Part shown: positions 25,651-64,000 of the stretch, one piece after another
Layout of the letters: every line of letters begins with the position of its first letter
Numbering within the stretch: position 1 is the first letter of the stretch
From: Tetradesmus obliquus
Taxonomy: Eukaryota > Chlorophyta > Chlorophyceae > Sphaeropleales > Scenedesmaceae
Length of the DNA: 64,000 nt
Direction of reading: 5' to 3'
NCBI GenBank assembly: GCA_030272155.1
Contig: CP126193.1
Coordinates: 930,001-994,000 of the forward strand
Notes under the pieces: model-generated
What the model saw: the letters and a program-made list of their open reading frames with translations, nothing else
The model's database searches: none
What the model was told of the DNA's origin: nothing
Program-made: the position numbers and the translations under genes

Positions 25651-28212
25651 ATGGAGCACGCATGGCAGGATTTCGGGCAGAAGGTAATATGCAAGAGAAT
25701 ACGATGTACATCCGCAACCTATTGCCATATGCAGCAGTTATGAATGATTGCATGCATGACGAAGTGCTCTGGGATCAGCTTGGTCTTATCACAACTGCAG
25801 CAACCGCTTCAGTGTACATTCAGGCACATGCATGCACTGTGGCGCTGGTGTGCCGCATCCACCTGTGAAGCCGATGCGTCTGCCAAACCCGCATTGTTTT
25901 GCTGTCTTGCTGTCCTGCAAGGTGGACCTCACTGCCCGCCTCAGGGAGATTCTGATCAACTACCCAGAGGGAACAAGCATCCTCAAGGAAATTGTGCAGG
26001 TGCATTAGCAATGCTACTGTAAATCAGCAGCTTTCACGCTACAGCCAGCAGCAGGTGCAGCCACGGTCATGGCGGCTGCTGGCAATAATGGCACAGCAGC
26101 AGGCTAACTGTTGCAGCAGCCTGAGGATCTGGCTGGGGGCGGTGCAAAGCATCGCCAGCAGCAGTGGGCCAAAAGGCCAGAAGCTGAGCACTGCCGCCTG
26201 TGTTGTACTGCTGCGCCCTGCAGAATGCGGACGATGCAAAGGCCACAATTGTCAAGTTTTGTCTGGACTACAACACGTACCCAGCAGGTGTGTCCTGCAA
26301 GTGCAGCTCCTGGCATGTAACAGAACACCGTAGCACAAAGCAGCAGTGCATGCATGCCTACTAGGGTAGATTGCAGCGCAGGCAGATGCGAGCAACACAC
26401 TATAAGGCAGCAGCACTGGCAGCACAGTATGCTGCTGGCGATGGGTTGCTCTGTGGCGCTGCGACAGCATGCTTCGCACTGATTGCTGCTGTCTTGCTGC
26501 CGTGTGGCTGCTGTTCTGCTGCTGCGCTGCTTGCTGAGGCGGTGCTGTCTCCCACCATGCGCGCATTCCAGGGCCCTGCACTTCTCAGCTTCAACGATAG
26601 CATGCTGAGCGCTCATTGCTGCTGGCTTGCTGCTGTGTGGCTGCTGCCCTGCTGCTGCACTGCTGCAGATGCGGTGCTGTCTCCTGCAATGCGCGCTTTC
26701 CAGGGCCCTGCACTGCTGGCCTTCAACGATGGCGTGTTCAGCGAGAAGGACTTTGAGTCCATCAGCAGGATCGGAGACAGCAAGAAGCGAGAGCAGCTGG
26801 GCAAGACCGGCAGGTTTGGGTGAGTGGCTGCAGGGGGCACACAGCCGGTGCGGGGTGTGTTTGGAGTTGACAAATAGCACAGCAGCAGTCTTCAGACAGC
26901 GGCAGCGTTGTGCTTGTGCCAGGCAGCCGGCAGCGTTAGGTGGCAGGTTTGGGTGAGTGGCGGTGTGGCGACACAGCGGCTGGTGACACAGCTGGTGCAG
27001 GGTGTGGCTGAGGTGGCGGCTGCCATAGCAGCAGTCAGTTCATAGTGGCAGCGTTGTGCAGCAGCGGTGGTGTCTGTTTGAGCTGCGCAACGCGCAGCGT
27101 TGGCGGCAGCCTTATGTGGAAATCTTTGTTGCGGCTGCCTCGATTTTGCCCGCCAGACCTCCCCTATCAGCCCTTTTAACCTTGCGTCGATGCCGTCAAC
27201 CAACATTCCTGTGTGTATGTGCTGTTGTGTATGTGCAGCGTGGGCTTTAACGCCATCTACCACTTGACTGATGTGCCCAGCTTCGTGTCTGGCGAGCACC
27301 TGGTGCGAAATGGAGCGCAATGGAGCTCACTCAATAGCAGCGCATCTCCACTGTTTGCTTTGGTGGTGTCCAGCATCACCAGCAGTGCTGCATGCCCGTG
27401 TTGCTTGCCGCTCCTGGCATTGCTACACGTGTGCACATCATGGCGGCATGCACATGTTACGCAAGAGGACCAGTGTGTTGACAGTGCCTTTATTGTTTGT
27501 CTGCGCAGGTGATTTTTGACCCCCACTGCAAGCACTTGCCAGCTATCTCAGCAGGTGCGCAGGCATAGCACAACACAGCAATGCAGCTATCTTGCAGTGC
27601 AGGAAGCAGCTTTAGAAAATCTTGCAGTGCAGGAAGCAGCTTTGGAAAAACCTTTGGGCTATGGCGACTATACAGCAGATCAGCAGCACCAGCTGCCTCT
27701 GACACTGCACACACTGCCGTGCGGACCTGTGCACACCACCTCCAGTCCACCTCCTCTCTTTTCCAGCCCACTTTATCGATTGTTTGTTTGTTGCTTTACT
27801 CTCACTCCGTTTGACTGCAGCAAACCCCGGCAAGAAGATCAACTTTGTGCAGCATACGCTGCAGCCGTCACTAGCCCACCAGGCGGCACCCTACCAGCTC
27901 TTCGGCTGCAACACAGCCAGCTACTACCCAGGGACGCTGTTCAGGTTCCCGCTGCGCACGCAGGCACAGGCAGACGCAAGCACCATATCCAAGCAGGTAT
28001 GCAAACCAGTCGCGCATCGCAGCCCAGCAGCTGTGATCCTCTGGTCAGCAGGCAGTGGGAAGGCGTTGTGGGGGCAGGGCCTTCTAGCAGTGCGAGCTTA
28101 GCGAGGGCTCGTTCTCCACAACTGCTTTCGACGTGGACAGTTGGCAGTGGAAGCAGGGTGCTTGCGTCTGTGCAGTGGCATGAAGGGTACCCATCCTAAC
28201 TGTTTCGGTGTA

Positions 28213-28244
<32 letters not shown>

Positions 28245-30125
28245 TGTACACGCCAGAGTCCATCTCTGCACTCTTTGATGACCTGCGCCAGGAGGTGCAG
28301 CTGGTGCTGCTGTTCCTGAAGAGCATCCGCAGCATTGAAGTGCTGCAGCTCCTGCCAGGCCAGGCACAGCCGCAGCTGCTGTTCAGCTGCAGCGTTGCAA
28401 ATGCAACTGAAGCAGTGCTGCAGCAGCGGGCGCTGTTCCTGCATGCTGCTTCAGCGCCTGCTGATGAGGTGGTGGCGGGCACTTACCGACTGGATATGGC
28501 CATACGGTGAGTGCGCAGGGGCTGCATTGTGTTATGTGAGAGCTGGTGTGGATGGCACCTGAATGCTGTGATGCTGCGCCCCACCCTGTGGCTGACAGCA
28601 ATCTGACGGTGCCTTGTGCTCTGCAAGAGTATGCGCGCGCTTGCATTTGCCTTAGGGATTGGTACTAGTGTCGTGCAGGCTGCGTGGCAATGCCGGCGTC
28701 AGCGGGTGTTGCAGCTGGCAACGAAACACACTAGGGCGTAAGCCAGCGTCCGGCATTTAGTTGGTTGCTGCAATTCTGCCATGCTGCCATGCAGGGATCC
28801 AAACACCAGCACAGCACAGTCCCTCAGCTTCCTGGTGTGTCAGCGCCGCGGCCAGCAGCAGCTGCTGTCAATGGCAGCTGAACTCAGCAAGCAGTTCCAG
28901 GTGCCGCTGGTAGCTTGGGGCGCTGTCGCTGCTGAAATAAGCAGCAGCAGCAGCAGTGCCGCTGAGCAGCAGCAGCAGCAGGGCCAGCTGGCAGGCCGCG
29001 CGTTCTGCTTCCTGCCGCTGCCTGCGTCCACTGGGCTGCCGCTGCACGTCAACGGCTACTTTGAGCTGAGCAGCAACAGGCGCGACGTGTGGCACGGCAG
29101 CGACATGGCGGGAGCGGGGCGCCTGAGAGCGCAGGTGTGTGCGGCAAGGATCTGCTGCTTGGCACCTGCTGGGTGCTCGCCATGGCTTGCGTGACTGCCA
29201 CATGTGTGTTCGTGTGTTGGTTTTCAGCTTGTTAGGGTGTTGCTAGCTGCATTGAAGTTAGCTGTATCCCTTGCTGGTGCCAGCAGTTCTGCCACCCAGC
29301 CGACTGAACCACCGCACTGTTGTCTGCCGCATCTGCTGCTGCTGCTGCTGCTGTGGCCAGTGGAACGAGGCGCTGCTGCAGCTGGTGGTGGCCCCTGCCT
29401 ACTTGGACCTGCTGGCTGCTGCTGCACAGCTGCTGGGCCACGGGACGCAGTATGCCAGGTGGGCTGTGCGCTGCTTGTTGTATCTCCCTTTTCAGCGGCT
29501 ATGCTGGCTTTCTGGCCACTAACAAATGGCAGCTGTGTGAGGCTTGACTTGAACTTCAGTGTATTTGCAACTGAACCTGTCCTCCTGTGTGTGGGATGGT
29601 CCTTTAAGTGTTTGTATGGTATTGTTTTGTACTTGCTTACAGCAGTGAAACTTATTAAACACCACATCCACACACCACCAACTGCAACCCTCATACTGGC
29701 CGACATACTATACTTTGTACACTTGTTGTGTGTAGCGTGTAGCACTCACCTGGTGTCCCCTGCGTGCTGTGCAGGCTGTGGCCAGCCACAGATGCCCTAG
29801 AGCCCTGGCAGTGCACAGTGCGTCTGTAAAGCCACAGGCTTGAAACCAAAACCACTTAACATGGTTGTTCCCTGATTGCTGCGCAGGCTGTGGCCCAGCA
29901 CAGATGCCCCTGAGCCCTGGCAAGGGATAGTGCGCCAGCTGTACGGCCACCTACCCAACAAACGCCTGCTGTGGACAGCAGCACATGGCGGCAGTTGGCT
30001 AGCCATCGATCAGTGCATTTTCCCTGATGCAGCGTGCCTGCAGCAGCAGCTGTTCCACTTGCTGACGGCTGGCGAGGCGCAGCAGGGCTGGCTGCAGCAT
30101 GCACCTCAGCAGAATGCCAGCAGTG

Positions 30126-30160
<35 letters not shown>

Positions 30161-33100: not shown

Positions 33101-35836
33101 GCTGCTGGCGCAGGTGGGGTTTTTGAGTGCTGGTGATGCTGCTGCTGTCAGTATCAGCATGGAATCCTTATCAGCATGGAACTCTTATCAGCATGAAACC
33201 CGTATGCATCCCATAGCCTTGTCAGATGTGCATACCACCTGCAGGTGGAGTGGCTGCCGCCAGTGTTGGCTAGAAGCCCCTATGTGTGTACACAGCTCAA
33301 TGAGAAGTGCATGTGCCACATCAGCAGCACGGCGGTTGCAGGCTGTCTGCTGCGCTCCACCCTGTCAAGCCTTGCTGCAGATGTACGATGCATCACCAGG
33401 CAGTGCCGCTGCAGCTTCACATATTCTGTCCTTGCACCTCTTGCCCCTGCCCGTGACTCTACCGCCTCTGCAGACACCGCTTGTGCCCAACAGCCTGGGC
33501 CAGCTGCACACGCCCAGCCGCGTATACGACCCGCGCGTGCCAGAGCTAGTGGTGGAGCTGTGTGACCTTGTTTGCTGGTCGCCTTTCTCTTTTACCAGCA
33601 CCTCACCCTGCACCTGCTGACCTTGCGCCTGCCTTCATTTGTCTGCCACTGCAGACGCCGTTTGTGCCCAACAGCTTGGGCCAGCTGCACACGCCCAGCC
33701 GCTTATACGACCCCGGGGTGCCGGAGCTAGTGGAACTGCTGGACCCTGAGGCATGCAAAAACATGTACTACTTGTTTAATGTAAAATTTAAAAGCATCAC
33801 CTACTGGTCGCTCTGCCATCAAACAACACTGCTTGCCTTGCACCTGCCCTTGAAACTGCCACTGCAGACGCCGTTTGTGCCCAACAGCTTGGGCCAGCTG
33901 CACACCCCAAGCAAGCTGTACGACCCCCGGGTACCGGAGCTAGTGGCGCTGTTGGACCCTGAGGCATGCTTCCCTGCTGCTGCCTTCTGCTCAGCTACAA
34001 ACACAGCAAACACAGCAAATACAGCAGAAACATCGGCAAGCGATTCTATAGATTCCGCTGCAGCTGGTGTCAACGGTGGTGGTTATGGTGTTGAGGATGA
34101 AGGGAATGACGGCTTCAGCAGCCTAGCAGCGCTGCAGCAGCTGGGGCTGCGCGGCAGTGCTGACCTGGGCACGCTGCTGCTGGCGGCGCGATACGTGGAG
34201 AAGACGGCCAGGGAGGGCGATGGGGACATGGCAGTGGCGCGTGGCAAGGTGCGCAATTACATAGCACACAACTGCTGTTTTATCATCATGACCACTTTGT
34301 CTTGTCCGTCCACCGGTGGCGCGCGGCACGGTGTGCTGCAGTGCAGTATAGACACCTAGCTGCTGTGATGTGCCTTACCCTATGTCTATGGTGATTTTGA
34401 TGGCAGCTGTCTATGTGCTGCTTGGTGTGTGGAGTGATGTGGAGAAGACCGACAGGGAGGGCGACGGCGACATGGCGGTGGCGCGCGGCAAGGTGCGCTG
34501 CAGTGCAATTGGGACAACCAGCTGCTGTAATTTGCCTTGCCCAGTGATTAGGTGAATTTGATCATAGATAACTGCAAGGGAGGGCGATGGGGACATGGCG
34601 GTGGCGCGCGGCAAGGTGCGCCGCTGAAGTAACATAGCCAGCCAGCTGCATTAGTGCAATGCTGTGTTGAGAACATTGTGGACTTTGAGACTGCGAGGGA
34701 GGGCGATGGAGACATGGCGGTGGCGCGCGGCAAGGTGCGCTGCAGCGCAGTATGGACAACTAGCTACTGTGATTTGTGTCAACCCTATGTCTCTGGTGGT
34801 TTTGATGGCAGCTGTTTACATGCTGCTGGCGGCGCGATACGTGGAGAAGACCGACAGGGAGGGCGACGGCGACATGGCGGTGGCGCGCGGCAAGGTGCGC
34901 TGCTGAAGTTACAATAAGTGCTGTCTCAGCTTTATTATGTTATTGATCACCATGTTATCCATCAACCTGTGACGCACGGCAAGGTGCGCTGCTGTGGAGA
35001 AGCACACAGAATGGCAGGCAGCTGCTGTGTTTCTCTGCGTGCCAAATGCTTGTGGATGCAGGTCTTTGCGAACAAGCTGCTGCCGTGTTGTTTTGTATGG
35101 GTTTGAGCGTGCACAGGAGCGTAGTGATCACTGCAGCCTGCAACATTCATGCAGCACCCGGCAATGCAGCAAGGTGCTCCAAGTTGACTGTGTGCAGCCT
35201 GCTTTGCACCTTTACACGGCGCGCTTGCCATTGATGCTCGAAACATGCTGCATCACAGACATCTACTCATCTTTATGTGATGGTTTTATTGCAACCCTGC
35301 AGGCACTGCTATCCTACCTTGATACAGAGGCGGAGCGCCTGGTGGGGCGCCACACAGCCATCACCAGTGCAGCAGCAGCAGCCGTCGCTGCCGCCACAGC
35401 ACAGCACAGTCAGCACGGCAGCAGCAGTGAGAGCGACCCAGGCACCCCAGGCGGCAGCAGCAGCAGCAGCAGCAGGCAGGGCAAGAAAGGCCGGCCTGGC
35501 ACTGGGCTGTTTTCAGCAATGCAGAACTTGCTTGGTGGTATTGGCGGCAAAGGCGGGCAGCAGCAGCAGCAGCTGGGCAGCAGGGGCCAGTTTGGTTCGT
35601 CTTCAGCAGTAGATGGCGGGGGTGCAGCAGCAGCTACGGGTGGCGCTGGGCAGTCTCAGCAGCAGGCTGAGCAGCAGCTGATTGCTGCTCAGTGGGCTGA
35701 GCTGTCTCGCACCTGCTGGTGCCCCATTATTGCAGTGGCACCTGACCCTGCTCTGCCTTGGAAGGACAAGCAGCACCAGCCTACTGCAGGCATTGAAGCA
35801 GCAGGTAGCGAAGGTGCAGCTGGCGTGGACAGCAGC

Positions 35837-35880: not shown

Positions 35881-36308
35881 GCTTGCTGCGCCGTGTGCAG
35901 CCAGGCCCAGGGGTGACCTGTGGCTGGTGTCTGCTGTGATGGCTGTGGTGGATGGGGACTGCAGGTGCGGGCATAAGTGGCACAGTGCAGGAGCGTTGCG
36001 CAGCAGCTGGCAGCTGGCAGCTGTCATCGACAATGTATTGCTTGTAGGTCGCCTGTCACGTGCGCGCGCTGCTGTAGATGTTGTGTGCGTTGCGGGTGGC
36101 CCGTTTCACTCTAGACGACTGTCACACGTCAAACAGCTGCTGTGGTGCGCCTGCAATCACTTGCCGCATCACTGCTGCTGCTGCTGCTGCCGCAGGTCGC
36201 CGGTGATGCTCGCTGGCCTCGGCTGGAGCTCCCCCGCTGCCAGGCGCTGTGCTGGCCAGCCAGCTGGCAGCACTGGGCACTACTCACCCCTGCTGCTGCC
36301 TGCTGCTG

Positions 36309-36346
<38 letters not shown>

Positions 36347-36438
36347 AGGTCCCTGGTGATACTGGCTGGCCTTGGCTGGAGCTCCCCCCTGCCAGGCGCT
36401 GTGCTGGCAAGCCAGCTGGCAGCACTGGGCACTACTCA

Positions 36439-36478
<40 letters not shown>

Positions 36479-36570
36479 AGGTCGCCCGTGATGCTAGCTG
36501 GCCTTGGCTGGAGCGCCCCGCTGCCAGGCGCCGTACTAGCCAGCCAGCTGGCAGCACTCGGCACTTCTCA

Positions 36571-36635
<65 letters not shown>

Positions 36636-39600
36636 AGGTCGCCAGTGATGATGGCTGGCCTTGGCTGGAGCTCCCCCCTACCTGGCGCCGTACTAGCAAG
36701 CCAACTGGCAGCACTCGGTGCTGCGCACCGCAGCGTGGCAGATGCAGCACTAGCTCAGCAGCTGGCGCGTGTGGTGCCTGTGCTGTATGGTGCCCTGGCT
36801 GGCCTGCCGCAGCAGGAGCTGGCTGCTGCTGCTGCTGTGCTGGAGGGGCGGGCCACGGTGTGGGTGGGCAATGGCTTCGTGCCTGCAGAGCGGGTAGCCT
36901 TCAAGGTACGCCGGTATGGTTTTCTTGCAGCACTACATTGTTTTATAACAACACAGTTATTGACAGAGAGACTGCAATCATTTATGTGCGTCGGTTGGCA
37001 GCTGTTGGTGGCATAGGCAGCTCTTTCCAGGCATATTCTACTGTATGTGAGCCAGCTGCTGCTGCTGTGCTGGAGGGGCGGGCCACGGAGTGGGTGGGCA
37101 ATGGGTTCGTGCCTGCAGAGCGGGTGGCCTTCAAGGTAGGCGCTAGGGTGTGATAATCGTGTGGTCAAACAACAAAGTAACTGCAACACTTTTGGGGTGT
37201 GGGCTAACAGCTGTCGGTGGTGCGGGCTGCTGCCACCACGCAACATGTACTTCAGTCGCGCCACGCCGTGTTGTTGTGGAAGATGTGTAACAGCTGATGT
37301 CCGCTGTACATTTTGCAGCGTCTCCGCGCTGAATGCAGTTTCCCCCATACATCATACACTGCTTCACTTTTATATGTTTTCATGCATGCAACTGCAGGGC
37401 GGGCTGGACCTGTCGCCGCACCTGTACGTGCTGCCGCGTGAGTTGAGCCCCTGGCGGGAGCTGCTGGCAGCACTTGGGGCACAGGAGGCCTTCAGCGCTG
37501 CACAGTACACCACGCTGCTGCAGGTGCGGCAAGACTTGTGGTTTGACCATGTTTGCGTACAAGCAGTTTGTTCTGAAGTGCAAATGTGATGCTTTTGTGT
37601 GCCCTCAGCGCAGCGCAGTACAGCTCGCTGCTGCGGGTGCGGAGCTGTGTGGTTTGACGTGTTTTCATTGGCGTATGGTCAGTTGATGCAGCAGATGCGT
37701 GTCCTGGCGGGAGCTGCTGGCGGCACTGGGGGCCCAGGAGGCCTTCAGCGCTGCACAGTACACCACGCTGCTGCAGGTGTGGGGTTGGGTTTTTGTTGGG
37801 CCATGTCTGCATACAATTACTGTATACTGAGAGCAAACGTAGATGCTGTGCGTGCCCTTGAATTTCCGAGTTGTAGAGTGGTGATGCTGCTGCGCCTTGC
37901 CTGCACACTGCACGCTGCACACCACACACGGCATACTGTACGCTGCACACTGCAGAATCCGGGCCATGAGGCACGAGGCAAGCCGCTGGCGCCGCAGCAG
38001 CTGGCTCAGGCCCTGGCAGTGGTTCAGCAACTCTCATACATTGCATATGTGGGCGCATGCAACTCTTGGCTGCTGTACTTCCACTGCACCATGCACACTG
38101 CGGGACCTGGGCCGTGAGGCTGCTGGCAAGCCCCTAGCGCCGCAGCAGCTGGCGCAGGCCCTGGCAGTGGTGCAGCAACATTCAATGATGCACATGTGTG
38201 TGCAATCAAGTCTTGGCTACTGCACTTCTACTGCACCTTGCACACTGCAGGACCTGGGCCGTGAAGCAGGCGGCAAGCCGCTAGCGCCGCAGCAGCTTGC
38301 TCAAGCCCTTGCGGTGGTGCAGACCCTCGCAGATGTGGTGGGGGCCTCAGGCGGTGGGGCCACTGCCGGCAAGCGCGCAGGCGATGTGACAGCAGCGGCT
38401 GGCGGCAAGCAGCAGGAGCTGCTTCTGGTGCCTGATGATGGCGGCGTGCTGAGGCCTGCTGCTGAGCTGGCGTATGACGATGCCCCATGGCTGGATGCAC
38501 CAACCGCAGGTAAGCAGTACAGCAGCAGCAGTTGTACAGTTTGTGTACACGTGTGCACCGTTTACACGTATCATGCTGAGGCCTGCCGCTGAGCTGGCGC
38601 ATGACGATGCCCCGTGGCTGAATGCACCCACAGCAGGTGAGCAGTGCAGAATGTTTGTGGATGTGTAAGTTGTACTGGTGCCTGATGATAGCAGGTCTGC
38701 TGGGTTGTTTCGGGTTTTCGGGTATAGCGTTTGCATCATGCATTTATAGATTTCAAAGTTCATGCATGGCAACTGCGGCCCAGGCAGATTCGAGAGTGCA
38801 CCGTGTGTACTTGCTGCCACCTGCTGCCACTTGCAATGCATGTAACTTCCTGTCTCTAGCATGAAGGTCTGGAAGGGGAGCTGCAGCTGACGCGCCAATC
38901 GCAGCTCTGGCGCTGCGGCTGGTAATGTGGCAAACTTCGTTGTGCTGAATTGCATGTGCGTTGTTCTGATGTCACTGCAGGGCTGGAGGGCGAGCTGCGG
39001 CTGGTGCACCCGCGCGTGTCAGCGCCAGTAGCTGAAGCCCTAGGTGTGGCCTCGCGGCGGCGGCTGATGCTGGCTGCATCTGCTGACTGTCTTGCGCTGG
39101 GGCTGGCTGGGGCTGGTGGGGCTGTGGAGGCCTTTGGGCAGAGCGAGGCGCTCACAACGCGGCTGCGACACATCATCCAGGTGAGCCTGGGTGATGTGTT
39201 TGTATGTATGGGGTTGTTGGTTGGGTGGCAGCGGTATCGTGGTGGTATGAAGAGGGTTGTGCGCTTGGAGACACGCATGCACACACTCTTCTGCTGCTGC
39301 CTGCTTATCAAATAATGATTGGCCTGGTGCTGGGGCTGGCTGGGGCTGGTGGGGGCTGGTGGGGCAGTGGAGGCCTTTGGGCAGAGTGAGGCGCTCACAA
39401 CGCGGCTGCGCCACGTCATACAGGTGGGTGGGGCTGGTGTGTTTTCATGTATGGGGATGTTGGTTTGAGACACACACGCACAACACCCTTCTGCTACTGC
39501 CTGCTTATCATTATATCGGTTGGCCTGGTGGTGGGGCTGGTGGGGGCTGGCTGGGGCTGGTGGGGCAGTGGAGGCGTTTGGGCAGAGCGAAGTGCTGACA

Positions 39601-42600
39601 ACACGGCTGCGCCACATGATACAGGTGAGCCGGGGCCATGTGCAGCATTACATGTTTGAAACCGTTGCACCTTTGAATAATGTTCCCAAGCTGGGATTGT
39701 GTTGCTGTGGTGGGTTTCAAGCATGATCGGAAGGGCCGCAATATTTACAGGTGGTGCATGACAGCAGTGGGGTAATGTGCACTTGCTCCCTGTGCGCACG
39801 CTTGACCTTGACTAGACCTCTAGCTTGTGGGGGTGACGAAGAAGCCGTTGCACCTTTGAATATTGTGCCAATCTTGGATTGTGGTGTTATGGGGATGTCT
39901 AGCATGTGGGGAAAGGGCCGCAATATTTACATTCTGTGCATGACGGCAGTGGGGTGATGTGCACTTGCTCTGTGCGCACGCTTGAGTTTGACTGGACCTG
40001 TAGCTTGCGAGGTAATTGAGAAGCAACTGCACCTTCGAATATTATGCCAAGCTGGGATTATGGTGTTATGGAGATGTCTAGCATGTGGGGAAAGGGCCGC
40101 AATATATACAGTTGGTGCATGACGGCAGTGGGGTGATGTGCACTTGCTCCCTATGCGCACGCTTGACCTTGACTGGCCCTGTAGCTTGTGCGAGTCACGG
40201 AGAAGCAACTGCACCTTTAAATATTGTGCCAAGCTGGGATATGGTTTTATGGAGATATCCAGCATGTGGGGAAAGGGCTGCAATATTTCAAGCTAGTGTA
40301 TAACAACAGTGGGGTGATGTGCACTTGCTCCTTGTGCGCACGCTTGAGTTTGACTGGACCTGTAGCTTGCGAGGTAATTGAGAAGCCGTTGCACCTTCAC
40401 ATATTGTGCCAAGCTGGGATTATGGTGTTATGGGGATATCTAGCATGTGGGGAAAATGGCTGCAATATTTACATTCTGTGCATGACGGCAGTGGGGTGAT
40501 GTGCACTTGCTCCCTATGCGCACGCTTGATTTTGACTGGACCTTTATCTTGTGCGGGTGATGGAGAAGCCGTTGCACCTTTGAATATTGTGCCAAGCTGG
40601 GAATATGGTGTTATGGGGATATCTAGCATGTGGGAAAAAGGGCTGCAATATTTCAAGCTGGTGCATGGCAACAGTGGGGCGATGTGCACTTGCTCCCTGT
40701 GCGCACACTTGACCTTGACTGGACATGTAGCTTGTGCGGGTGATGAAGAAGCCGTTGCACCTTTGAATATTGTGCCAAGCTGGGATTATGGTGTTATGGG
40801 GATATCAGCATGTGGGAAAAAGGGCTGCAATATTTCAAGCTGGTGCATGACAACAGTGGGGCGATGTGCACTTGCTCCCTGTGCGCACACTTGACCTTGA
40901 CTGCACCTCTAGCTTGTGGGGGTGATGAAGAAGCTGTTGCACCTTTGAATATTGTGCCAAGCTGGGATTACACACTTGTTTATGGGTCACACTTGTTGGG
41001 TGCAGCGTGGGGCCGGTCACAACTGTTTGGTGCAGCCTGGGCCCGGTCACAAATGTCTTTGGTGCAGCCTGGGGCCGGTCACAATTGTTGGGTGCTGCGC
41101 GGGGCCGGGCTCAATTTTTTGCTTGCAGCCTGGGGCCGGTCACAATTGTTGGGTGCAGCCTGGGGCCGGGCTCAATTTTTTGCTTGCAGCCTGGGGCCGG
41201 TCACAATCGTCTGGGTGCAACCCAGGGCCGGTCACAATTGTCTGGTGCAGCTAGGGGCCGGTCACAATTGTTTCGCCGCAGCATGGGGCCGGTCACAATT
41301 GTTGAGGCCGGTCACAGTTGTTTCTATCTCCACGCTATTTTGTCTCAGCTGTTGGTGTTTCCCCATCAACGTGACGATCATGCTGTCAACGTGATTATTC
41401 AGAGGGCCCTGGTTTCCTGCTGGAGCTTCTCCAAACCACTGATGTCTCGGGGCCCACCAGAGCCACATTCCTGCTGGGTACGCGGCAGCATGGCACAGCC
41501 AGCCTGCTGGGACCTGGCATGGCTGCCGCGTGTTAGTACCACCGTTTTCTGTTGAAATTGTTTTTCCTCATCCGCTGTCACAATGTTGCACTTGCCACCT
41601 GCAGGACTACCTAGAAGGCCCCGGCGTGCTGCTGGAGCTTGTGCAGCATGCAGACGATGCAGGGGCCACCATAGCAGCATTCTTGCTGGATGCGAGGCAA
41701 CACGGCACAACCCACCTGCTGGGCCCGGGCATGGCTGCAGATTGTCACTACCAACGTTTCCTTTGTTGTGTTTTTCAACTGCTGTGACAATGCTGCGCTT
41801 GCCACCTGCAGGACTACCCAGAAGGCCCCGGTGTGCTGGTGGAGCTTGTGCAAAATGCGGATGACGCAGGCGCCACCAGAGCAGCATTTTTACTTGATGC
41901 ACGGCAGCACGGCACAGCCAGCCTGCTGGGACCCGGCATGGCTGCCTGGCAGGGCCCTGCGCTGCTGGCTTTCAACGATGCGATGTTCAGCCCGGGCGAC
42001 TTTGCGGCGATCGCGCGCATTGGGCAGGATGGGAAGATGGCGCAGCCGGCCGCCATTGGCAGGTGCGGGTGACAGGCTTGCAGCTGTCAGTGAATTTGTT
42101 TTAAGTACTGTTGTTTGCGGCAAATGCTGTTGTATGTGGTCAGCAGTCTGCACTTGTGGCCACAGCAGACACTGCAAGTGCACTGGGGCATCTTCTGTGA
42201 AGGTCCTGATGTTCTTGCCATGTTTATCCGCCTGCAGGTTTGGGCTGGGCTTCAACGCGGTGTACCACCTGACCGACCTGCCCAGCTTCGTGTCGGGGCA
42301 GCACCTGGTGCTCTTCGACCCGCACGCCAAGTACCTGCCAGGTGCGGCGGGTCTGCTTGACTGTGTGTTGGCATGTTGGTTGTGCGTCATTGCGCAGGCT
42401 GTGCTGCTTGTGTTGACTATGTCAGTCCTGTGCAGGTTGACCCGCAAGCCGGAAACCTGCCAGGTGAGGATGCGCTGCATTACGGCGTGGTGGTGTCGGT
42501 ACGCCATCCCGTACGATGTGCTGCCGCTGCTTGTGTGGCCATATCACTGCTCTGTGGTGATCTTGCCACTTTGCCATCGATCCAGCAGGTTGATAGCTGG

Positions 42601-48800: not shown

Positions 48801-50713
48801 AGCAGCAGCAGCAGCAGGTGCTGCGCATTGCCCCAAAGCTGGTGGCTCCTGCTGAGCTGGCCTGGCTGGCCAGTGCCCCTCTGAGGCTGCTGGCTGGGCC
48901 GCCGCCTAGTGCAGCACTGCAGCAGCTGCTGGGCTGGTCTGTACAGCAGGTGCTGCGGCCACCTGTGGCGATTGCGCAGCTAATGGAGCTGGGGAAGATG
49001 TACCCTGCAGGACAGGTGAGGGAGTGAGGCACAGGTTGTTTCTATCAATCAATGCCTTGAGTCGTCCTATCAGCATCGTATGTGCAAGAATTGCGCAGCT
49101 GATGGAGCTTGGCAAGATGTACCCTGCGGGAAAGGTAAGATATTGAGCCACGGCTCTTTACCAGTGACCGGCCTGAGTCATGCTAGGTGCAAGATGGTGT
49201 GACTGCATTGCGCAGCTGATGGAGCTGGGGAAGATGTACCCAGGACGGGTGAGGGAGTGAGGCACATGGCGTATAAAACTTTGCATTTTAGCTAGCAGAT
49301 GAGGTGCATATCGTGAATGTTGTGCGTCTGCGGGTTGTGCGGTAGATGTGCCCTGCTGGGCAGGTGATGCACAACACCTGGGGCATCCAGACACACCGCA
49401 AACCTGACTTGCATTGTCAACCTTTCTTTATCTTGTCACCAACCTGATTGCATCCCCCACAGGTGCATGACCCAGCCCTGCAAGCCCAGCTGTGCAAAGC
49501 AGCAGGCACGCTGTACAGCAGCCTGGCAGGCTGCCTGACCGACCCTGAGCAGCATCAGCTGCTGGACATGACGCTGTCTGTGTCACCGTGTGTGTGGGCC
49601 GGCAGCGGCTTTGCATTCCCGGCAGTGGCGGCGCTGCAGCCTGACCAAGCAGCAGCAGCAGCAGCAGTACCTGGTGCAAGTGGTAGTGACACCTTAGCAG
49701 CAGCAGCAGCAGCAGGGTTAGATGGTGCTGGCAGCTCTGAGCAGCAGGAGCGGCAAAACGACCCAGCAGACATAGAAGAGGTGGCTGATACAAACACATC
49801 CCTCCGGCAGCAGCAGCAGCAGGAGCAGCAGCAGCAGCAGCTGCTGTGGGTGGTGCCGCAGCAGCTGCTGCAGCAGCATCTTGCTGCCGCAGACACTCTG
49901 CAAGCCATTGGTGTGCGGCGCCAGCATGACTTTGCTGCGTATGCCATTGCGCTTGCTGTGCTAGCTGAATCTGCGGCAGGCCAACCTCTGCATGAACATC
50001 AACTTGCATTGGCCCTTTCATATGCTGAGTCAGCAGCACAAGCAATATTATCAGGCTCCAGCAGTATACGGCAGCTGCAGCAGCCGGGTGCAGTGGCAGC
50101 TGCAGCCGCACTGCAGGCTGCGGCAGCAGCAGCAGCCGGCAGCAGCAGCGTGAGTGCTGCGGGTGGTGCTGATGTGCTGCTGCTGCCAGATGCAGCAGGG
50201 GTGATGGCCCCGCCTGGGGAGCTGTACTTTAATGATGCTGCTTGGTTAGAGGCTGAGGGGTTGAGGCTGGCACACCATGGGCTGAGTCAAGCTACCGCTG
50301 AAGCACTAGGTGTTAGATCCATGAGGTGCGCAGAATGATGTTGAATCTGTATGATGTTGCATGGCACATCCCGGCCGAACATTGTTTGGGTCAATGATGC
50401 TGCGTGGTTAGAAGCTGAGGGGTTGAGGCTGGCACATCATGGGCTGAGCCAAGCCACTGCTGAAGCACTAGGCGTTAGATCCATGAGGTGAGTTCGATAG
50501 CACAACGTCCATGCACGTTTGTCGTTGCGGATGGCAACGGCAGCAACGGCAGCAATGGCAGCAACATTGTCATGCTCGTTGTTAGTGGCCTTTGGACTCA
50601 TGTCGTGCACCACACAGTACGCTGCATGCACTGCCCACAAATTATGATGTCCATGTGTGCATCATTGCGTGCTGCTGCTGCCGCTGCTGTTGCGCTCCTG
50701 CTTTTGCTGCTGC

Positions 50714-50747: not shown

Positions 50748-53700
50748 ATTGCTGCTGCAGGTACCAGCACGAGGTCAGCCACCAGCTCACCACCAACGTG
50801 CCCTGCCCAGGCCTGGACGAGGCTGCAGCAGCTGCAGCAGCAGTACTGGCAGCATGCACCAGCAGCCAGGCCAGGCCTGCACCACACCCTTCAGCAGCAG
50901 CAGCAGCAACAGCCCTAGACAGCGGTGGTGGCACCACCACAGCTGCAGATGAAGTTGTTGCCGAAGCTGGTATAGCTGCAGCAGCAGCAGCAGCAGCTGG
51001 GGCAGGTGTTGCTGACATGGTCGGCCCAGCTGCAGCTGCAGCATCTGGGCCTGTTGCTGCCGTGCTGCTGGCTCTGCTGTCATGGGCAGACCAGGCCCAA
51101 GCAGCGGCAGACGTCAGCAGCAGCGGCAACAGCAGCAGCAGGCGCTTTGTCACTATGTCTGTGGTGCTGGATGAGCGTCAGCATGGCGCTGAGAGCCTGC
51201 TGCACCCTGGGCTGGCCAAGCTGCAAGGTGGGGCGGGCAGCTGTTGCAGCGTTGCTCACGCAAGTAAAGCTGCACAGCATTTGTAATGGTGTGCCTCTGC
51301 ATTGTACATGCAGTAGTACTGCATGTGCTGTGATGTTATTGTGGTCTCGTCAGGCATATTCTTGATGCACTCTTCGTGCAGCCGCAACAGCTGGAGCGCT
51401 TACCACCCACTTTATATGGCTTGTCACTGCTTGCGTCCTTTGCACACGCCCTACAGGCCCTGCACTGTGCTTTGCGCTGAGTGGCGCCAGCCTCACTGCA
51501 TCATCTCAAGCACTTGCCACCTACCAATCGCTGCGCATTGTTTGCTGTTTATGCACACGCAGGCCCTGCGCTGTGCGTTGCACTGCGTGGCGCCAGCCTC
51601 ACTGCAGCCCAGCTGGCGCAGCTGATGCCAGCCAGAAGGCCGGGCAGCACCCCTGCTGGTGGGGATGGTGTGCCAGGGGCCGGGAGAATGGATGCCGCGG
51701 CAGCAGTGCAGCTGGGCCTGTCCAGTGTGTGGGCTGTCACAGATGTGCTGCAGGTGGGCGTTAGCAGGCATTTGGCTGTCGGATAGGCTAGTACAGAGAA
51801 GCGAGAGCCTGCTGACTGATTTTATTTGTCCAGTGTGTGGGCTGTCACAGATGTGCTGCAGGTGGGCGTTAGCAGGAGTTTGGCTGTTGTTGTGCTTCGT
51901 AAAGCACCACGTGCTACTGTATGCACCAACAGTAGGCACGTGCACAATGCTGCTGCGGTATGCTCTGCTGGGGTGACCGTGCTGTGCACAACACGGTGTG
52001 TCTGTCTGCACGTCCCGCAGGCCATGTCCGGTGACACCACCTGCTAGTGGGACCCTTCAGGCGCTGCACTATATTATATGTGCACTTTTGATGTGCTGCA
52101 CTATGTGATGTGCTGTGTTTTGTGCTGTCCATGCAGGCCATGTCTGGTGACACCACCTGCTACTGGGACCCATCAGGTGCTGCACAACACTGCTGTGCTG
52201 TGCTTTGCTGTGGTGACTTTGATGTGCGCTACCATTTTTGTTTGCTGTCCATGCAGGCCATGCCTGGCGACACCACCTGCTACTGGGACCCCTCGGGCGA
52301 TTGCACTGTATTATCTGCTGCACTATATTTGTGTGCTGTGTTTTGTGCTGTCCTTGCAGGCCATGTCTGGCGACACCACCTGCTACTGGGACCCCTCGGG
52401 CGCTGCACTGGCGCAGACATCAGCAGAGTTACGCAGCCCTGCCCCCAGGGGCCGCTGCGTACGCCACACACAGCCAGGGCTAGCACAGCGCTTCGCAGAC
52501 CAGTGGAGCGTGTGGCAACCCTGCAGCAGCAGCAGCAGCAGCAACTCAGCGTCAGGCAAATCTGCTGAGAGTGAGGCAGATGCTGCAGGTGTTGTAGGTG
52601 ATGCGTTGTATCTAAGGCTGCCGCTGCGGCTGCTGCAGCAGCAGGGCATGCAGGCTGGGTCTGCGCTGGCGGGTGCTGCTGCAAAGCAGCTGGGGCAGAG
52701 TGGCAGGGCGATGGGCTTGAGCATTGAGGACGTCAGGCAGCAGGTAGGAGAATGCAGCATAGCAGAAAGATGCATATCGTGCTACACACAACCCATCGTG
52801 TGCAGACGGCTACTGGGTGACTGTCGTGTAGAGTTCAAGGCGCGGGGAATGGGCAGATATTGTTTATATAACTGCTCAGCACGGCTGCTTGCGTAGCCTG
52901 TGCTGCTCAGGCTGTAGGTGCTATACTCTACAAACAAACGAAGAAGCACCTGCTGCTGCTGCTACTTGCCCAACAGGTTGCCGCCTTTGGCCCTGCTGCC
53001 ACCAGGAGCCTGCTGTTCCTGGGCCACATGCAGCGCGTGTCTGTCTCACACCTGCCAGCAGGCAGTGCTGCTGCAGCACAGCAGCAGCAGCAGCAGTTGC
53101 GGCTGTGGCAGGGGTCCGTTGCCCCGAGTGTGGTTGGCAGCATGCCGCTGCGCACAGGTGAGTGGTGCAGACATCATACAACTAAAGTTCAACACGGCAT
53201 GAGTAGTGCGCAAACACTGGTCCTTTTAGAGGGAGTTGAGCGCATTGAATGTGTGCGTTGGCATCAACACAGCTGTGCCTGGTTCAGTGACTGCCCCGCT
53301 TTCTGGCATAGGTAATCACTCGTATCTCGTGCTGTGGATGTTGTGTCTAGGTATTATCCACCGTGCGTAGAAAACAACTCAGTTTAACACGTCTTTTCAT
53401 GCATGCTGAACTGCTCATGGTCTGCTGCAGGGGCTGCAGCGGAGCAGCACACAGCCCGCTGTCTGCAGCAGCAGCAGACCATGCACGGCCCTGGAAGCCT
53501 GCTGGCACGCATTGCAGCAGGTGCACGCGGCGGCGGCAGCAGCAGGAGCAGCAGCAGCAGCTACAAGAATTGCTGGCCCATCACATTGCAGGCTGTGTGC
53601 CGGCCTGGGGCGCTGCAGCAGCTGGCGGCAGGTCAGGCAGCAGACAGCTGTAGCACAAAAGCAGCGGCAGCAGCAGCAGCAGCAGCTGGGAGGGATGTTC

Positions 53701-54613: not shown

Positions 54614-55397
54614 TGCTGTCTGCGCTTGTGACAGCCTGGCAGGAGCTTGTGACGATGCTGCACAACATGCGGCACAAGGGACTGTACTGCCTGCTGCCTG
54701 ACCTTGTTGGGGCGCTGGAGGCTGGAGACGGTGATGCAGCATACGCTTTCAAGAATGTGAGTGGTGCTGTTTTGCAGTAGTACAATGCGATGTTGGTAAT
54801 GGCAATTCAGTGTTGCTGGTTTGATGCACGATGGGATCATGTCAACCTGGTGATGGGCTAGCAGACAGGATCATGTCAAGCTGGTGATGGGCTAGCAGAC
54901 ATAGTGGTGTTGGGAATGTCGATCCATGGTTGCTGGTTCAATGAATAACGGAATCAGGGCAACCTGGTTGTGGGCTGGCAAACGCCGGGTCGGCTGCAGC
55001 GCTGCCTGTTGTAGTCGGTTCTGTCAGTGTGTAGTGCCTGCAACTGCATGTTTGCATCTGCAGTTTGCAGCTTAGAACAGCTTCCCCAGTTCCGTGTGCG
55101 ATACACACAGCAAAACCTTGAAGCAGTTGCATGCTGTGCATGGGCACTTAAGTTTGTGTCGCGCTCATTATTTTTATGTTGGTGTTGTGCTGCTGCGCCT
55201 GCAGATGTACCGCGCTGTGGCCAGCCAGCCCAGCTGGGCGCTGCACAACGGGCGGCTGGTGCACCTGCAGGAGGGAGCATTCCTGCCACCCAGGGACATG
55301 TCACCTGCACACAAACACGCACAGCAGCAGCAGCAGCAGCACGACCACCACACATCCTCAAGCGCTGCAATTGGCAGCGCTGCAACCAGCGCCACTC

Positions 55398-55431
<34 letters not shown>

Positions 55432-57478: not shown

Positions 57479-57513
<35 letters not shown>

Positions 57514-60500
57514 TGGTGCAGAAAGTGTTGCCCCGCCAGGGCTGCCAGTGGAGCAGCTGCTAGGGCAGCAGCCAGTGCTGGGCCGGCCTCCTTTCCTAGG
57601 CCCCCTTGTGAGGAAGCTTGCAGCAGCACAGCAGCAGCTGGGCAGCTTGTCACAAACACCACCAGCAGCAGCAGCAGCAGCACCGGCATGGGATGAGCCG
57701 ACTTGGTGCAAGCTGTTTGTGCTGCTTGCTGACAACCCGCCGAGGGACTTGCAACCTGGAGAGGTGGCGTTCCTGCGCAGCCTGCCCATGTTTCGGCGGC
57801 TGCAGGTGCAGGTGCAGCAGCAGCAGCAGCAGCAGGAAGAGGACGCAGAGGGCTGGCTGCAGGATGATCTGCTGCTTCCAGGTGGCAATGAAACAGCAGC
57901 AGCTGCAGAGCAGCAGGGGCAGCTGGTTGCACTAGGGGAGGACAGCAGCTGGGTGCTGGCTCCGCAGGCTGTTGTGCAAGAGTGCCAAGGTGAGCCCCCG
58001 CAGTTCTCTGTCCTGCTGGTCATCAAAACATGTAGCCAGCTATGCTCAGAAGGGCCCAGAGTGCTACCTTCCATGCTGTATCTGCCTAGTCGGCAGTACA
58101 AGTCGTACCAGGTGTTTCAACACTTACAAGAAAAACGTCTGGGTGTAGTTAGTAGCACGTTGGAAGATCATCAGAGCTGCAGCTGCTGTGTTGTAACCTC
58201 ATCACACCCTCGTCCTTTTTTCCTCTGTTTTGTCTTGCTGCAGGCTTGCTGCAGCTGCCAAGCCTACCAGCTGGCTGCACCAGCCACGTGTTAGAGCACC
58301 GCCCCACATGGGGCGAGCTGTATTACATTCTGGGCCTCTCTCCTGCAAGCCTAGCAGATTTCCTGCAAGCGCTGCTGCTTCCACATCTGCTGCAGCTGTC
58401 AGTAGCAGATCGGCAGTCTGCATTGAGTTTTATTCATCAGCATTGGTCAAACAGCAGGTGGCAGCTGGGATTTGATGAAGTGTTTGTTACAGCACTGTCA
58501 GCGCTTGCTTTTGTGCCTGCAAAAGTGGCACCCGCTGCCGCTGCTGGCAGTGCAGCAGCAGCACGAGCAGCAGCAGCAGCAGCAGCAGCTGGTGCCGACG
58601 GTGCTGGCAGCAGTACAGCATCAGCTGCTGCTGCTGCGAGTCAGGTTGAGCAGTTGTATTTGGCAAAGCATCTGTTTGACCCAACTGTGCCTCTGTTTGC
58701 AAAGGTTATGGCCACTATGGGGGTGGCTGCACTTGGCGCAACAGCAGCAGCAGCAGCAGCAGGTGGCGGGGGTGTTGCGCTGTTTCCAGCAGCACCTTAT
58801 GACAGCCCTGGATGGCTGCAGGTGAGGTGCTGCTCATGTGATGGCTGCTCCTAGCACCTGCCACATTGTATCTGTCCAGACCACAGCACAAACAGCATCA
58901 GCTGTACACCTGCTCCGCCAAGCTGCCAGTTTGTGAGATGCCTGATGCTCCTGCATGCCTAGTGCGCTGGCACTCTCACATGCATCCGTTGCCACCCTCC
59001 TTTCCCGCCGCCACTGCTCACTGCACTGCTGCAGGTATTGCGTGCTCTTGGGCTGCAGTGCAAGGTCACTTCTGAAACCTTCCTGCAGCTTGCACGCCAC
59101 ATTGCAGCCAGCGCAGCAAGCCTGGTAGCAGCAGCAGCAGCAGCAGCAGCAACACCAGCACCCACACACCACAGCTGCATTGACATCAGTGCTGCAGAAT
59201 CCAGCCAGACAGATGCTCTGGTATCAGCAGCAGATGCTCTGCTGGACCGTCTGCGCAGTGGCTGGGCGGGATTAGGCTCTGACAAGGCCTTCTGGCAGCA
59301 GCTGGGGCAGCTGCAGTTTGTGCCTGCCACGCTGGGCCTGCCAGGTGGGTGCTGCTGCTGACTTGGCTAATGTTTTGGCAGCTTCTCTTTATTCACTGCT
59401 CAGGTGCTTCACTGCTCAGGTGATGTTTTGGCATTCCAATATTTTATAATTATTTCTGGCTGTGCTTCCCTTGTCGGTAGGGTTTTCGTGCTTGACCTGT
59501 TTATGCTGGTGCATCATCCATTGTTGTGCAGGCGGCCGCACCTCCTGCCGCGTGTTCACCAGCTGCGCCGCCGCAGCGCAGCACAAGGACTGGCACCTGG
59601 TGTGGACGCTGCTGCCGCTGCTGGCGGAGAGCAGGGCGATGCCTGCGGTGCTGGCGCAGCAGCTGGGGCTGCGCAGCCCCCCGCCACTGTCTGCTGTGCT
59701 GCAGCACCTGCACCTGGTGAGGGGGCAGGGCTGGCTGGGCTGTTTGTTGCTTGTGTTTCTACATGCATTCTCCCTGTCAGCTCCTTTCACTTTTGTGTAC
59801 ACATGCCATGCTTTGTTGTTGCGCGCGTTGCTCTAAAGGTGTCATTTGAGCCACTCACCAAGCAAGCATGTGTCTTTGCTACATCTATGTGCTGTCTGCA
59901 CCTTACTCTCAGATCGGTGACAGCGAATTTGGCGAGGAGCTGCTTTTATCCTGGCCCGAACTCTGAAGCCCCTCCGCAGCCTCTCTGCCAAACTCCTGCT
60001 GGAATACATAGTCACATCTGCTCTTTGAACATCACCGCTTCCTCCACCAACAGCCTGATGAACGGACAGAAGACGCATGCATGCTGCTGCATGTGTGCTG
60101 TTGCTTCACCTGCTGCTACGTCTCTTCCTGCACTTTGTTCAGGTTGCTGGCAGTGATGGTGGTGAGGAGTTGCTCGCCTCCTGGCCCGACTCCCTCGAGC
60201 CACTCCCCACCCTCACCGCCAAAATCCTGCAGCACTTAGACAGGGAAGGCCTCAGCCCAAGACAGGCCGAGCAACTGGCCAGCGCTGCATTCATCCCTGT
60301 GGCACACTGCAGCAGGCTGGTGGCCCCTCAGCAGCTGTTCCTGCGGCTGGGTGGGGCAGCGCTGGCGCCGTTTGCGTGGGAGGTGCCTGGGCAGTTTGTG
60401 GGGCAGGCGCAGCTGCTGCAGCAGCTTGGGGTGAAGGAGGAGCCGCGGGCCGAGGACCTGGTGAGGAACTGCTGCTGCTGCTGCTGAAGTGACTTTCTGG

Positions 60501-63500
60501 GCTTACAGAGCCAACCCTCCATGTTGTGGATGGTGCATGTGGTTGAATATGCCGCTGTATCGTGCTGCTATTATGTACATACATGTGTGTCCCAGCCAGC
60601 TCATTTTGACCTGCACCTCACCTGCTGTGTCTGTAACTTTGCTATGCATGCAGGTGCGTGCCCTGCAGCGCTTTGAGCAGCAGCTCGCAGGCTGCCGCAT
60701 GAACCCCAACGAGCTCTACGCCTGCCTCAAGCTGCCGCCATACCTCTGCACACTTGCTTGCTGCCCTTATTCGCTGCCCTGCAGGTCCGTGCCCTGCAGC
60801 GCTTCGAGCAGCAGCTCGCAGGCCGCCGCATGAACCCCAACGAGCTCTCAGCCTGCCTCAAGCTGCTGGCCTACCTCTGCAGCCGCTCAAGTGCATGCGA
60901 CGCCTCTTATTTGGCATCAGCTCGGGCCTCCAATGCACTGCTGGTGCCATCTGCAGCAGGCTTGCTGATGCCTGCTGCACGGGTGGTGCATGTGGGCGGC
61001 AGTGGGGGTGGCGTGGCTGCTGCGAGGCTGCTGGGAAGGGCTGACCCGCGGCACCTGGTGCTGGCACACCCGCAGATCTCAGACCACATCTGCAGGTGGG
61101 TGTGCAAAACTGTCAAACTAATAGATTTCTAGAGGCCCCTATGCTGCGCTTGTGCCTGCGCACACGCACTGGCTGCTGCTGCGGGTTGCATGGCTGTCTC
61201 CTTGCAGCCTGTTAGACTGCTGAACACTCTTTTGGCCGATCGCTGTCCTGGAACACTGCTGAAACTGCTGCATCTACTTGCTGCTGCAGGTGGCTTGGCG
61301 TCGCCTCACTTTCTGACATGCTGTCAGAAGAGCTGGACCCGGCCCAGCCACTCAACCCCCTACCAGCCATCAACGGCACAACCCTGCAGCACATACAGTC
61401 CCTACTCGCCAGCCCTCATTTCGCACCTGCTGTCTTCAGCATTGCAGCAGCTCACGCAGCAGCAGTGCCTGCCCTGCGGCAGCTGGGGTTGGGTGCTGTG
61501 GCGCAGGTGTGTGCTGCTGCTGCTGAGCCTGGGAGGCTGCTGTTGGTGGACCGGCTGTGCAGCAGGGTGGTGCTGAGCAACAGCGGCAGGGATGTCACCA
61601 GGGACACCGCATCACGCCAGGTGAGTGATGTGGGGTGATGGCGCTGGATGCTTATAGCTATAGGATGGTTGGGAATGCCACCGGTGCTGTCGTAACAACG
61701 TGTTGTGACGTCATTGTTGGCAAACAGCATAGGAGGCGTGCTGTTGCATGTTGCCCAGCGCTCTGTGTGGTTCTCTTCGGTGTCATGCATCCAGCTGTTT
61801 CCCTAAAGCAGAAAATCATCTGCAGCCGTCTAGCTCCCTGTGCCCCTGCAAGCAAGCTGCTGCACATCCCCCTGCACACCCTCCTGCGCACCCTGCCTCC
61901 TGCCCTGCTCACCAATCACGTACTTGCCTCGCCTCTGTATGTCTGCCTGCAGTTTTACGAGTACAGTGCTCACTGCCGCTCACACCGCACTGCTGAATGT
62001 GCATGCCTCACCTCTCTGTGCTCATCTGCTTGTACAGATCTACGAGTACTTTGACAGCAGCAGCGGCACGCTGTACGTGGCAGTGCCCCCCGCAGGCCTG
62101 GCGCTGTCTTCGCTGCTGGCGCAGGTGCTGAGCAGGGCCCTGGGCAGCCCCTTCACGCTGCCGCTGCACCCGCTGCTGGAGGTGCCTGACGCGGCACAGC
62201 TGCCGCTGCTGCAGCCGGTGCTGCACCCAGGTGGGTGGGCTGGGATTGATTAAGGTATTAAATAATGATGTGGTCGTCAATGCTGGGGTGCAGTGTGCAG
62301 CGCTGCGCACAGGAGAGCAATTGCTGTGGTGGATTCGAGCATACTCAAGTGGTGTTGTGGGATGGTGGTATGAAACGGCGTCAATAATGTCACAGCTGGG
62401 CAGCCCCTTCACGCTGCCGCTGCACCCGCTGCTGGAGGTGCCTCACGCGGCACAGCTGCTGCTGCTGCAGCCGGTGCTGCACCCAGGTGTGTTGTGCTTG
62501 ATCGCTGTGTGGTGTGGTTGACGTGGCCGGTGTGCAGTGCGGCACTGCTGCACGAAGCAGAGCATTCTGCTTTTGTTTAGTTATATGATTATCGTTGGCC
62601 TACTGTTATGGAATGGCGGGATCACTGTAACATATTCCGTTTCACGCTGGGGCCCTGGGCAGCCCCTTCACGCTGCCGCTGCACCCGCTGCTGGAGGTGC
62701 CTGACGCGGCGCAGCTGCCGCTCCTGCAGCCAGTGCTGCACCCAGGTGGGTGGGATGGGATGTGGTTTGAGAGAAGATAGTTACATGTGGGTCCTGGCAC
62801 CATCCTGCTTGAACACATGGTCTGAGACCAGAAAAGGAGAGTGAGCACTGTTGAACACAATGCACACCCTTGAGCGCCGAACCTGTGATGTTATATCCAG
62901 AGCCGTCTTGCTGCGGTGCGCAACGACACCCCACCTCACCGACAGCTTGCTCTAATTGCAAACCACACCGTTTGGGTGTGTCAATCGGGTTGTGGACGTT
63001 GCTTTTGATGCAGTGCCTAATTTTTGCAAACTCAATGCTCGCGAGCTGTGGAGTGGCAGGCTTACTCGAAGGTGTTCTGCTCAACCAAGTGCTCAAGTGC
63101 TGCTGTGTTTTGTACTTACTGCAGGCGGCTATGACAGTGACCTGGAAGGAGCCCTCGCCAGCGGCCACGTGGGCTCGCCAGTGCAGCCAGCAGACAGGGC
63201 CTTGCTGCGCCTGCGGCCCCTTCGACACTACGCAGCAGGGGAGCTGGTTGCAGTCAAACGCCGGTCAAACAGAAACCCTGCTGCTGCTGCTGCTGCTGCT
63301 GTCAGCTCAGCTGCAGTGATAGCGCAGATAGCTGCTGGTGATGCTGGTGGCGGTGATGCGGAGGGTGCTGCGCTGTGCTACGGGCGTGTTGCGGTTGATG
63401 CTGCGCCTGCTGCTGGCCAGGCTGCGTACAGGCTGTCAGTGGAGGTGGAGCTGGGCGTGTACCAGACGCTGCTGTCAACACAGGTGCGTTGCAGTCGGCG

Positions 63501-64000: not shown

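Follow-up and report, generated by a model that had tools for sequence, protein, structure and literature searches.

Half-exon copies in the introns of a sacsin-like gene of Tetradesmus obliquus: junction-crossing tandem duplications, perhaps retained as decoy splice sites

Partial copies of exon edges lie in the introns of a sacsin-like gene of the green alga Tetradesmus obliquus, one example among many such introns of this genome. They appear to be products of tandem duplications that crossed splice junctions and in which the exon edge and its splice site were retained, perhaps as decoy splice sites; this reading is preferred tentatively, at somewhat less than an even chance.

Sequence and gene model

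The window (the whole stretch of DNA analysed, 64,000 nucleotides, C3:930001-994000; GC content 57 per cent) was taken from an assembly of 104.66 Mb in 17 contigs. Positions are counted from its first nucleotide. Exons are predictions from a home-made hidden Markov gene finder, with the window plus 25 loci of this genome as its training set. On the + strand a long gene was predicted that begins at ~26.2 kb and extends beyond the window end:

26224..64000, + strand, sacsin-like gene, predicted exons, continuing beyond the window to ~64541 or later (gene finder, Pfam SACS, junction phase)

Several intronic copies were called as exons by the gene finder, a warning for gene annotation that half exons are easily mistaken for exons. 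The curated model consists of 49 predicted exons, calls judged to be copies having been left out. The phase is intact at 45 of its 48 junctions; those out of phase (27996/28244, 37537/38236 and 39190/41812) are weak spots of the gene model.

The sacsin-like identity proposed in the initial annotation was confirmed. Four joined exons (41812-43757) match Pfam SACS (PF25794) with an E value of 1.3e-69, the match being continuous across the exons with the intervening intronic copies skipped, and their translation matches PDB sacsin 5v45 (E 4e-45). An earlier sacsin module lies at ~26.6-27.3 kb, where two matches of 47 and 72 per cent identity were obtained. A Pfam search with the ten + strand open frames first picked gave no family, probably because the SACS domain is split across short exons; the Rfam search of the window gave 0 matches.

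Repeats of other kinds were also noted. An in-exon 27-bp unit is present 4.5 times at 48636-48755 (in-frame repeat NAVDAHEAA), and another predicted gene upstream contains 3.5 copies of a 199-bp unit (18507-19207), mostly read as a single open exon. Trinucleotide runs of GCN/CAG type, read as poly-A, poly-Q, poly-S or poly-L, are very common in predicted coding sequence of the window and the control loci. Two stretches of 152 bp, 28988-29139 and 44448-44599, are 98 per cent identical and both end at donor +5; they sit in two otherwise diverged sacsin modules ~15.5 kb apart, which suggests recent gene conversion between paralogous exons.

Copies at the exon edges

Local duplications were identified by self-comparison with simple repeats masked and offsets below 1500 bp. 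The 38.4 kb from 25601 to 64000 hold 23 families (6.0 per 10 kb), in which 33 partial exon copies were scored at 19 predicted exon edges: 15 head copies (acceptor plus exon start) at nine acceptors and 18 tail copies (exon end plus donor) at ten donors. Marginal pairs at 26809/26942 and 29754/29866 and copies at 30501 and 30603 (with 30719-30766) were left unscored, as was 63860/63977, which became clear only once the adjacent 10 kb were included. The copies reported in the initial annotation are thus real, while their number, put there at about 45, comes to 33 scored or roughly 38 with the marginal ones. The copies and intronic arrays are as follows.

26462..26594, + strand, head copy of exon 26669-26819, period 133, acceptor lost
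33645..33969, + strand, two tail copies, exon ending near 33561, donor weakly predicted
34439..34903, + strand, four tail copies of exon end 34248, donor GTGCGC in 4/4
36192..36572, + strand, three head copies of exon 36638-36905, a CTG-rich run preceding the acceptor in each
37055..37149, + strand, tail copy of exon end 36905
37601..37858, + strand, two tail copies of exon 37398-37537, exon end weakly predicted
37934..38175, + strand, two head copies, exon starting near 38236, 147-148 bp period, start uncertain
38574..38649, + strand, tail copy of exon end 38509
39339..39642, + strand, two tail copies of exon 38981-39190, exon end weakly predicted
39658..40970, no strand, purely intronic array, ~182 bp x 7
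40985..41304, no strand, array read as purely intronic, ~31 bp x 10
41400..41738, + strand, two head copies of exon 41812-42062, SACS module start
43118..43312, + strand, two head copies of exon 43403-43757
49090..49266, + strand, two tail copies of exon end 49015
50393..50490, + strand, tail copy of exon end 50325; 7/7 exon differences synonymous
51441..51500, + strand, head copy of exon 51563-51753
51827..51887, + strand, tail copy of exon end 51753
52017..52185, + strand, two head copies of exon 52360-52743
59909..59999, + strand, old head copy of exon 60143-60460, 73 per cent
60649..60750, + strand, head copy of exon 60785-61095
62396..62492, + strand, first tail copy of exon end 62230, period 256
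62650..62761, + strand, second tail copy of exon end 62230

The two arrays and a third family, 54791-54983, were read as purely intronic. The repeats 26462-26743 and 26809-27059 are head and tail duplications of one exon with an equal period of 133 bp. Between 0 and 28 per cent of the exon positions differ between a copy and its exon; with an assembly of 17 contigs, this makes duplication by assembly error unlikely.

A splice site of the opposite kind scoring at least 5 within 25 nt of the opposite edge was present in four of the 33 copies (33561 first, 37537 second, 38236 first and 52360 first); the copies are half exons, in line with the initial annotation, where almost none was taken as a complete exon. 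The exon edges at 33561, 37537, 38236 and 39190 are themselves weakly predicted, which leaves the junction inside their copies unsure. With the predicted exons, use of the copy's own splice site would retain a stretch that is a multiple of three in nine copies and stop-free in six; in one copy of the 33 it would be both in frame and stop-free. The copy contiguous with the exon body alone joins in phase, as the initial annotation had it, and this is a consequence of protein survival. Coding use through the copy's own splice site was rejected for 32 of the 33 copies.

Translation of the copies, as alternative or cassette exon ends, is very unlikely. The codon-like constraint in the sacsin-like gene (see below) and the calling of several copies as exons by the gene finder are in its favour; both counts above, 4/33 with a suitable opposite site and 1/33 in frame and open, and the SACS match that spans its exons without the copies argue against it.

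Tandem origin

The tandem arrangement is clearest at exon end 62230, where the repeating periods are 256 and 254 bp and the exon pieces are 97-98 per cent identical; the first pair of spacers is recognisable (z 4.4) and the two other pairs are not. Spacers belonging to one unit show faint homology: their mean z over 52 HSPs is 1.24 (median 0.91, outliers 15.5 and 7.3), whereas the other side gives 0.11 (p 0.0013) and random stretches give -0.07 (p 2.3e-5). The HSPs are not independent, since some families contribute several. Outside the sacsin-like gene the mean z is 0.98 versus 0.17 for the other side (p 0.0058); the same comparison was not significant within the gene (p 0.064) or for blocks that are at least 92 per cent identical (p 0.1).

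From repeating periods and residual spacer homology, an origin of the copies by tandem duplication across existing splice junctions, as first proposed in the initial annotation, is well supported. The residual homology implies that at least part of the copies are former fuller tandem units in which the intron half decayed; others may have been copied without an intron half from the outset. Selection acting solely through rare loss of a repeat unit is argued against by the apparent age of the spacers. A paralogue origin was also rejected: searches with one protein and two DNA stretches gave no other sacsin-like gene among the best genome candidates.

Decay of the copies at the junction

Identity profiles were calculated for the 47 families with the junction inside the copied block (15/23 in the sacsin-like gene and 32/76 elsewhere). 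Within the exon, 6-nt bins counted from the junction show an identity of 0.84-0.92 up to nt 36 and of 0.62-0.64 by nt 60, the point at which blocks end. Within the intron, the 6 nt next to the junction give 0.87-0.88 and later bins 0.44-0.81, mostly 0.6-0.7. Unrelated pairs gave 0.46-0.69, a control that mixes donors and acceptors and so does not give the splice-consensus level of the first bin. In gap-free comparison of the 47 families the identity is 0.86 for 24 exon nt, 0.91 for the splice dinucleotide, 0.84 for the first 6 intron nt and 0.42 for intron nt 9-30 (exon against intron 9-30, Wilcoxon p 2.8e-8). Intron nt 9-30 are 0.38 identical in the 25 families with at least 22/24 exon nt identical.

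GT or AG is retained in 40 of the 47 copies (12/15 in the sacsin-like gene and 28/32 elsewhere) and lost in seven. On the trained splice matrices 37/47 copies score at least 3 (21/29 donor and 16/18 acceptor). Retention of exon edge and splice site in the copies is supported.

A neutral simulation was performed with selection on the real exon only and indel rates of 0.1, 0.3 and 0.6 per substitution. The simulated intron identity at well-matched exon edges is 0.77, 0.67 and 0.55, respectively, and the simulated blocks are nearly symmetric (median 59-70 intron nt and 76-81 exon nt). The observed median non-exon length is 8 nt in 57 exon-piece families (hand count, exon-richest HSP per family). 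The observed 0.38 in 25 families has a simulated P of 0.002 or less at all three indel rates; for the observed 0.42 in 47 families, P is 0.0000, 0.0018 and 0.058. The contrast between exon and intron is firm, except in the 47-family test at the very high indel rate of 0.6, where it is marginal. The exon half of the copies outlasted the intron half, which simple decay does not readily explain.

These blocks, which are shorter on the non-exon side and less identical in the intron than simulated, weigh against the copies being neutral relics, i.e. random tandem duplications that cross junctions by geometry and decay freely, with the remainder due to model error. This reading is improbable, although most of the junction share is explained by geometry and the codon pattern outside the sacsin-like gene agrees with it (both below).

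Codon pattern of the differences

Mismatches between exon and copy in the sacsin-like gene number 59, 38 and 194 at codon positions 1, 2 and 3, copies of the same family sharing events. Counted per site, copies differing among themselves gave 26, 19 and 67, and copies united against the exon gave 5, 1 and 28. The exon-copy divergence is 0.064 at 0-fold and 0.257 at 4-fold sites, with d4/d0 = 4.70 (95 per cent CI 3.41-7.35, 19 families); copy against copy, d4/d0 is 3.56 (2.49-6.61). With automatic frames the position-3 ratio is 2.67 (1.82-4.31) in the gene and 1.93 (1.56-2.49) elsewhere. The mutation spectrum was rejected as the source of this bias, the expected 4-fold/0-fold mutability being 1.03. 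Differences at 4-fold sites vary by family from 0/8 to 4/10, and near-identity extends even to these sites at 62230 (1.5/23) and 51753 (0/8).

By our own argument, d4/d0 for a neutral copy of a conserved exon has a ceiling of ~2. This value was exceeded in 5000/5000 bootstraps for the sacsin-like gene, which is a second point against neutral relics. In the 32 families elsewhere d4/d0 is 2.64 (1.64-4.09), an interval that includes 2 and is compatible with neutral, unselected copies.

Concerted evolution, in which gene conversion by the exon repeatedly overwrites its intronic copy, was considered unlikely. Selection on the exon side would set the limits of the surviving homology, and tracts would stop at the splice site; this would account for the junction step, the kept splice sites and the lack of function. 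The pairs near-identical at 4-fold sites (62230 and 51753) despite decayed or unmatched spacers also favour it, and the 98 per cent identical stretches 28988-29139 and 44448-44599, which stop at donor +5, suggest a local precedent. Against it, conversion predicts, on the argument above, a d4/d0 of at most ~2 rather than 4.7 (3.6 between copies), and it gives no reason why the spacers escape conversion.

Exchange between diverged haplotypes is an improbable alternative as well. Unequal recombination of long-separated alleles would have placed two diverged, functional versions in tandem; the differences would follow the pattern of orthologous exons and the copies would need no function. The d4/d0 of 4.7, the kept splice sites and the diverged spacers fit together in this case. 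Plausibility is lent by a Scenedesmus strain for which 1,606 of 2,661 scaffolds were set aside as alternate haplotype (PMC7955037); the assembly of another strain, ~twice the size of a relative's for a cause not stated there (PMC5552973), was counted in favour. The d4 of ~0.31, very high for alleles, the unevenness of 4-fold differences between families (0/8 to 4/10) and the combination of near-identical exon pieces with decayed spacers at 62230 speak against it. Under either gene conversion or haplotype exchange, the copies would preserve earlier coding states of the gene in which they lie.

Distribution in the genome and preference for junctions

For comparison, 20 other 10-kb stretches at round coordinates on 16 contigs were spot-chosen. 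They hold 71 families, with a mean of 3.6 per 10 kb and a range of 0 to 8; none was present in 5/20 and the density exceeded the 6.0 of the sacsin-like gene in another 5/20. The exceptional density attributed to the gene in the initial annotation was therefore not borne out. The first 25.6 kb of the window contain five families. Long arrays with units of ~275 and ~350 bp were seen at one control locus (L021:1-6039).

An exon piece paired with a non-exon copy is present in 57 of the 99 families overall. The 23 families of the sacsin-like gene divide into 16 such pairs, two without exon, four mixed and one all exon, and the 76 elsewhere into 41, 14, 14 and seven, respectively. These classes depend on the exon predictions, which include some copies called as exons.

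The caution attached to the initial annotation, that an excess of duplications at junctions over geometric expectation must be checked, was addressed by random placement of duplications with the observed periods on the curated gene, its introns first stripped of the extra copies; duplications inside an intron or crossing one junction were counted. The expected junction-crossing share is 0.71. By hand count 20/23 cross a junction (19 scored edges and one marginal versus three intronic families; p 0.06), and alternative counts are 20/24 (p 0.12) and 19/23 (p 0.15). With introns at their present length the expected share is 0.51 (p 0.002 or less), a value that was discounted because these introns include the copies themselves. 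Junction crossing in the sacsin-like gene thus shows no clear excess over geometry. A scan of block ends made independently of the gene model found shared donors enriched in the gene (7 against 1); elsewhere there was no enrichment of shared donors (10 against 8), and shared acceptors were not clearly enriched either (9 against 12).

Proposed explanation

The retention of exon edges as putative decoys would proceed in three steps. In the first, which is well supported, a genome with many tandem duplications (periods mostly ~80-280 bp) would keep those that cross a junction because the site joined to the exon body is still spliced and the protein is unchanged; a half exon with its splice site would be left in the intron. 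In the second, which is supported, the intron-derived half would decay, while the exon edge and GT or AG appear to persist beyond neutral expectation. In the third, which we infer, the copy would persist by staying in contact with the splicing machinery as a decoy. Simple use of the copy site is predicted to break the frame or bring a stop in 32/33 copies, so that the amount or timing of productive splicing might be tuned.

This reading agrees with the kept splice site, with the one-sided form of the copies and with the predicted disruption of the frame. The codon-like constraint deep in the exon fits less well: selection on splicing signals alone does not readily account for such constraint 45-130 nt into the exon. 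The decoy reading is weakened further by the strength of the real sites: those with copies are no weaker than those lacking them (p 0.11 for donors; acceptors in fact stronger, p 0.01).

A wider version, that many introns of the alga carry retained half exons with a live splice site, selected genome-wide as a dispersed layer of splicing control and possibly linked to long introns, is doubtful. Conspicuously long introns, of a size not explained, have been noted in Chlamydomonas and its relatives (PMC8226300). If copied exon edges are kept, tandem duplication feeds the evolution of splicing outside the intron-gain model, and one genome offers a natural set of splice-site competitions.

Comparison with known systems

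The literature search found no account of half-exon copies in green algal introns, and a prior description is possible. A term may exist for repeated exons within algal introns, but it could not be confirmed for algal genomes in PMC5966456, PMC7955037, PMC12571836, PMC7617258, PMC8226300 and PMC5658486, or in PMC5552973 and PMC5255914. The copies differ from introners and transposed intron elements in that no dispersed family was found when two stretches were searched against their own genome: 62038-62745 matched only itself, and 49463-50325 matched itself, its tandem copy and, elsewhere, short stretches read as GCN-repeat tracts.

Small tandem duplications at DNA breaks, formed via CST and Pol alpha-primase (PMC8355091), are likewise short and provide a known route; that work bears on origin only and is silent on retention. 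The closest described process found is intron gain in Drosophila by duplication of AG|GT (PMC2891723), which differs in outcome. Intron gain by tandem duplication, as outlined in a potato study (PMC4974935), shares the local duplication with splice signals and the saving of the protein by splicing. There, the duplicated exon piece makes a new intron, whereas in the sacsin-like gene an existing junction was duplicated and the copy lies inside an existing intron. The predicted introns do not run from the GT of copy 1 to the AG of copy 2 but end elsewhere, and the tandem unit runs on beyond the copy in the predicted gene. Exon-initial GT is present in 8/18 head families versus 38/218 other acceptors (p 0.011) and exon-final AG in 18/29 tail families versus 90/186 other donors (p 0.23); AG|GT at acceptors with head copies could be a hint of recursive splicing.

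Tandem exon duplication with mutually exclusive splicing is a known system that has in common with the present copies adjacent repeats of exon sequence with codon-like differences. It requires a complete exon copy with both splice sites, whereas the copies here are half exons with one; 29 of the 33 have no opposite-kind site scoring at least 5.

Unproductive or decoy splicing, including poison exons, is likewise well known. The present case has in common with it a kept exon-like sequence that would break the frame if used, and differs in that the sequences are half exons derived from the neighbouring exon edge and are found in many introns.
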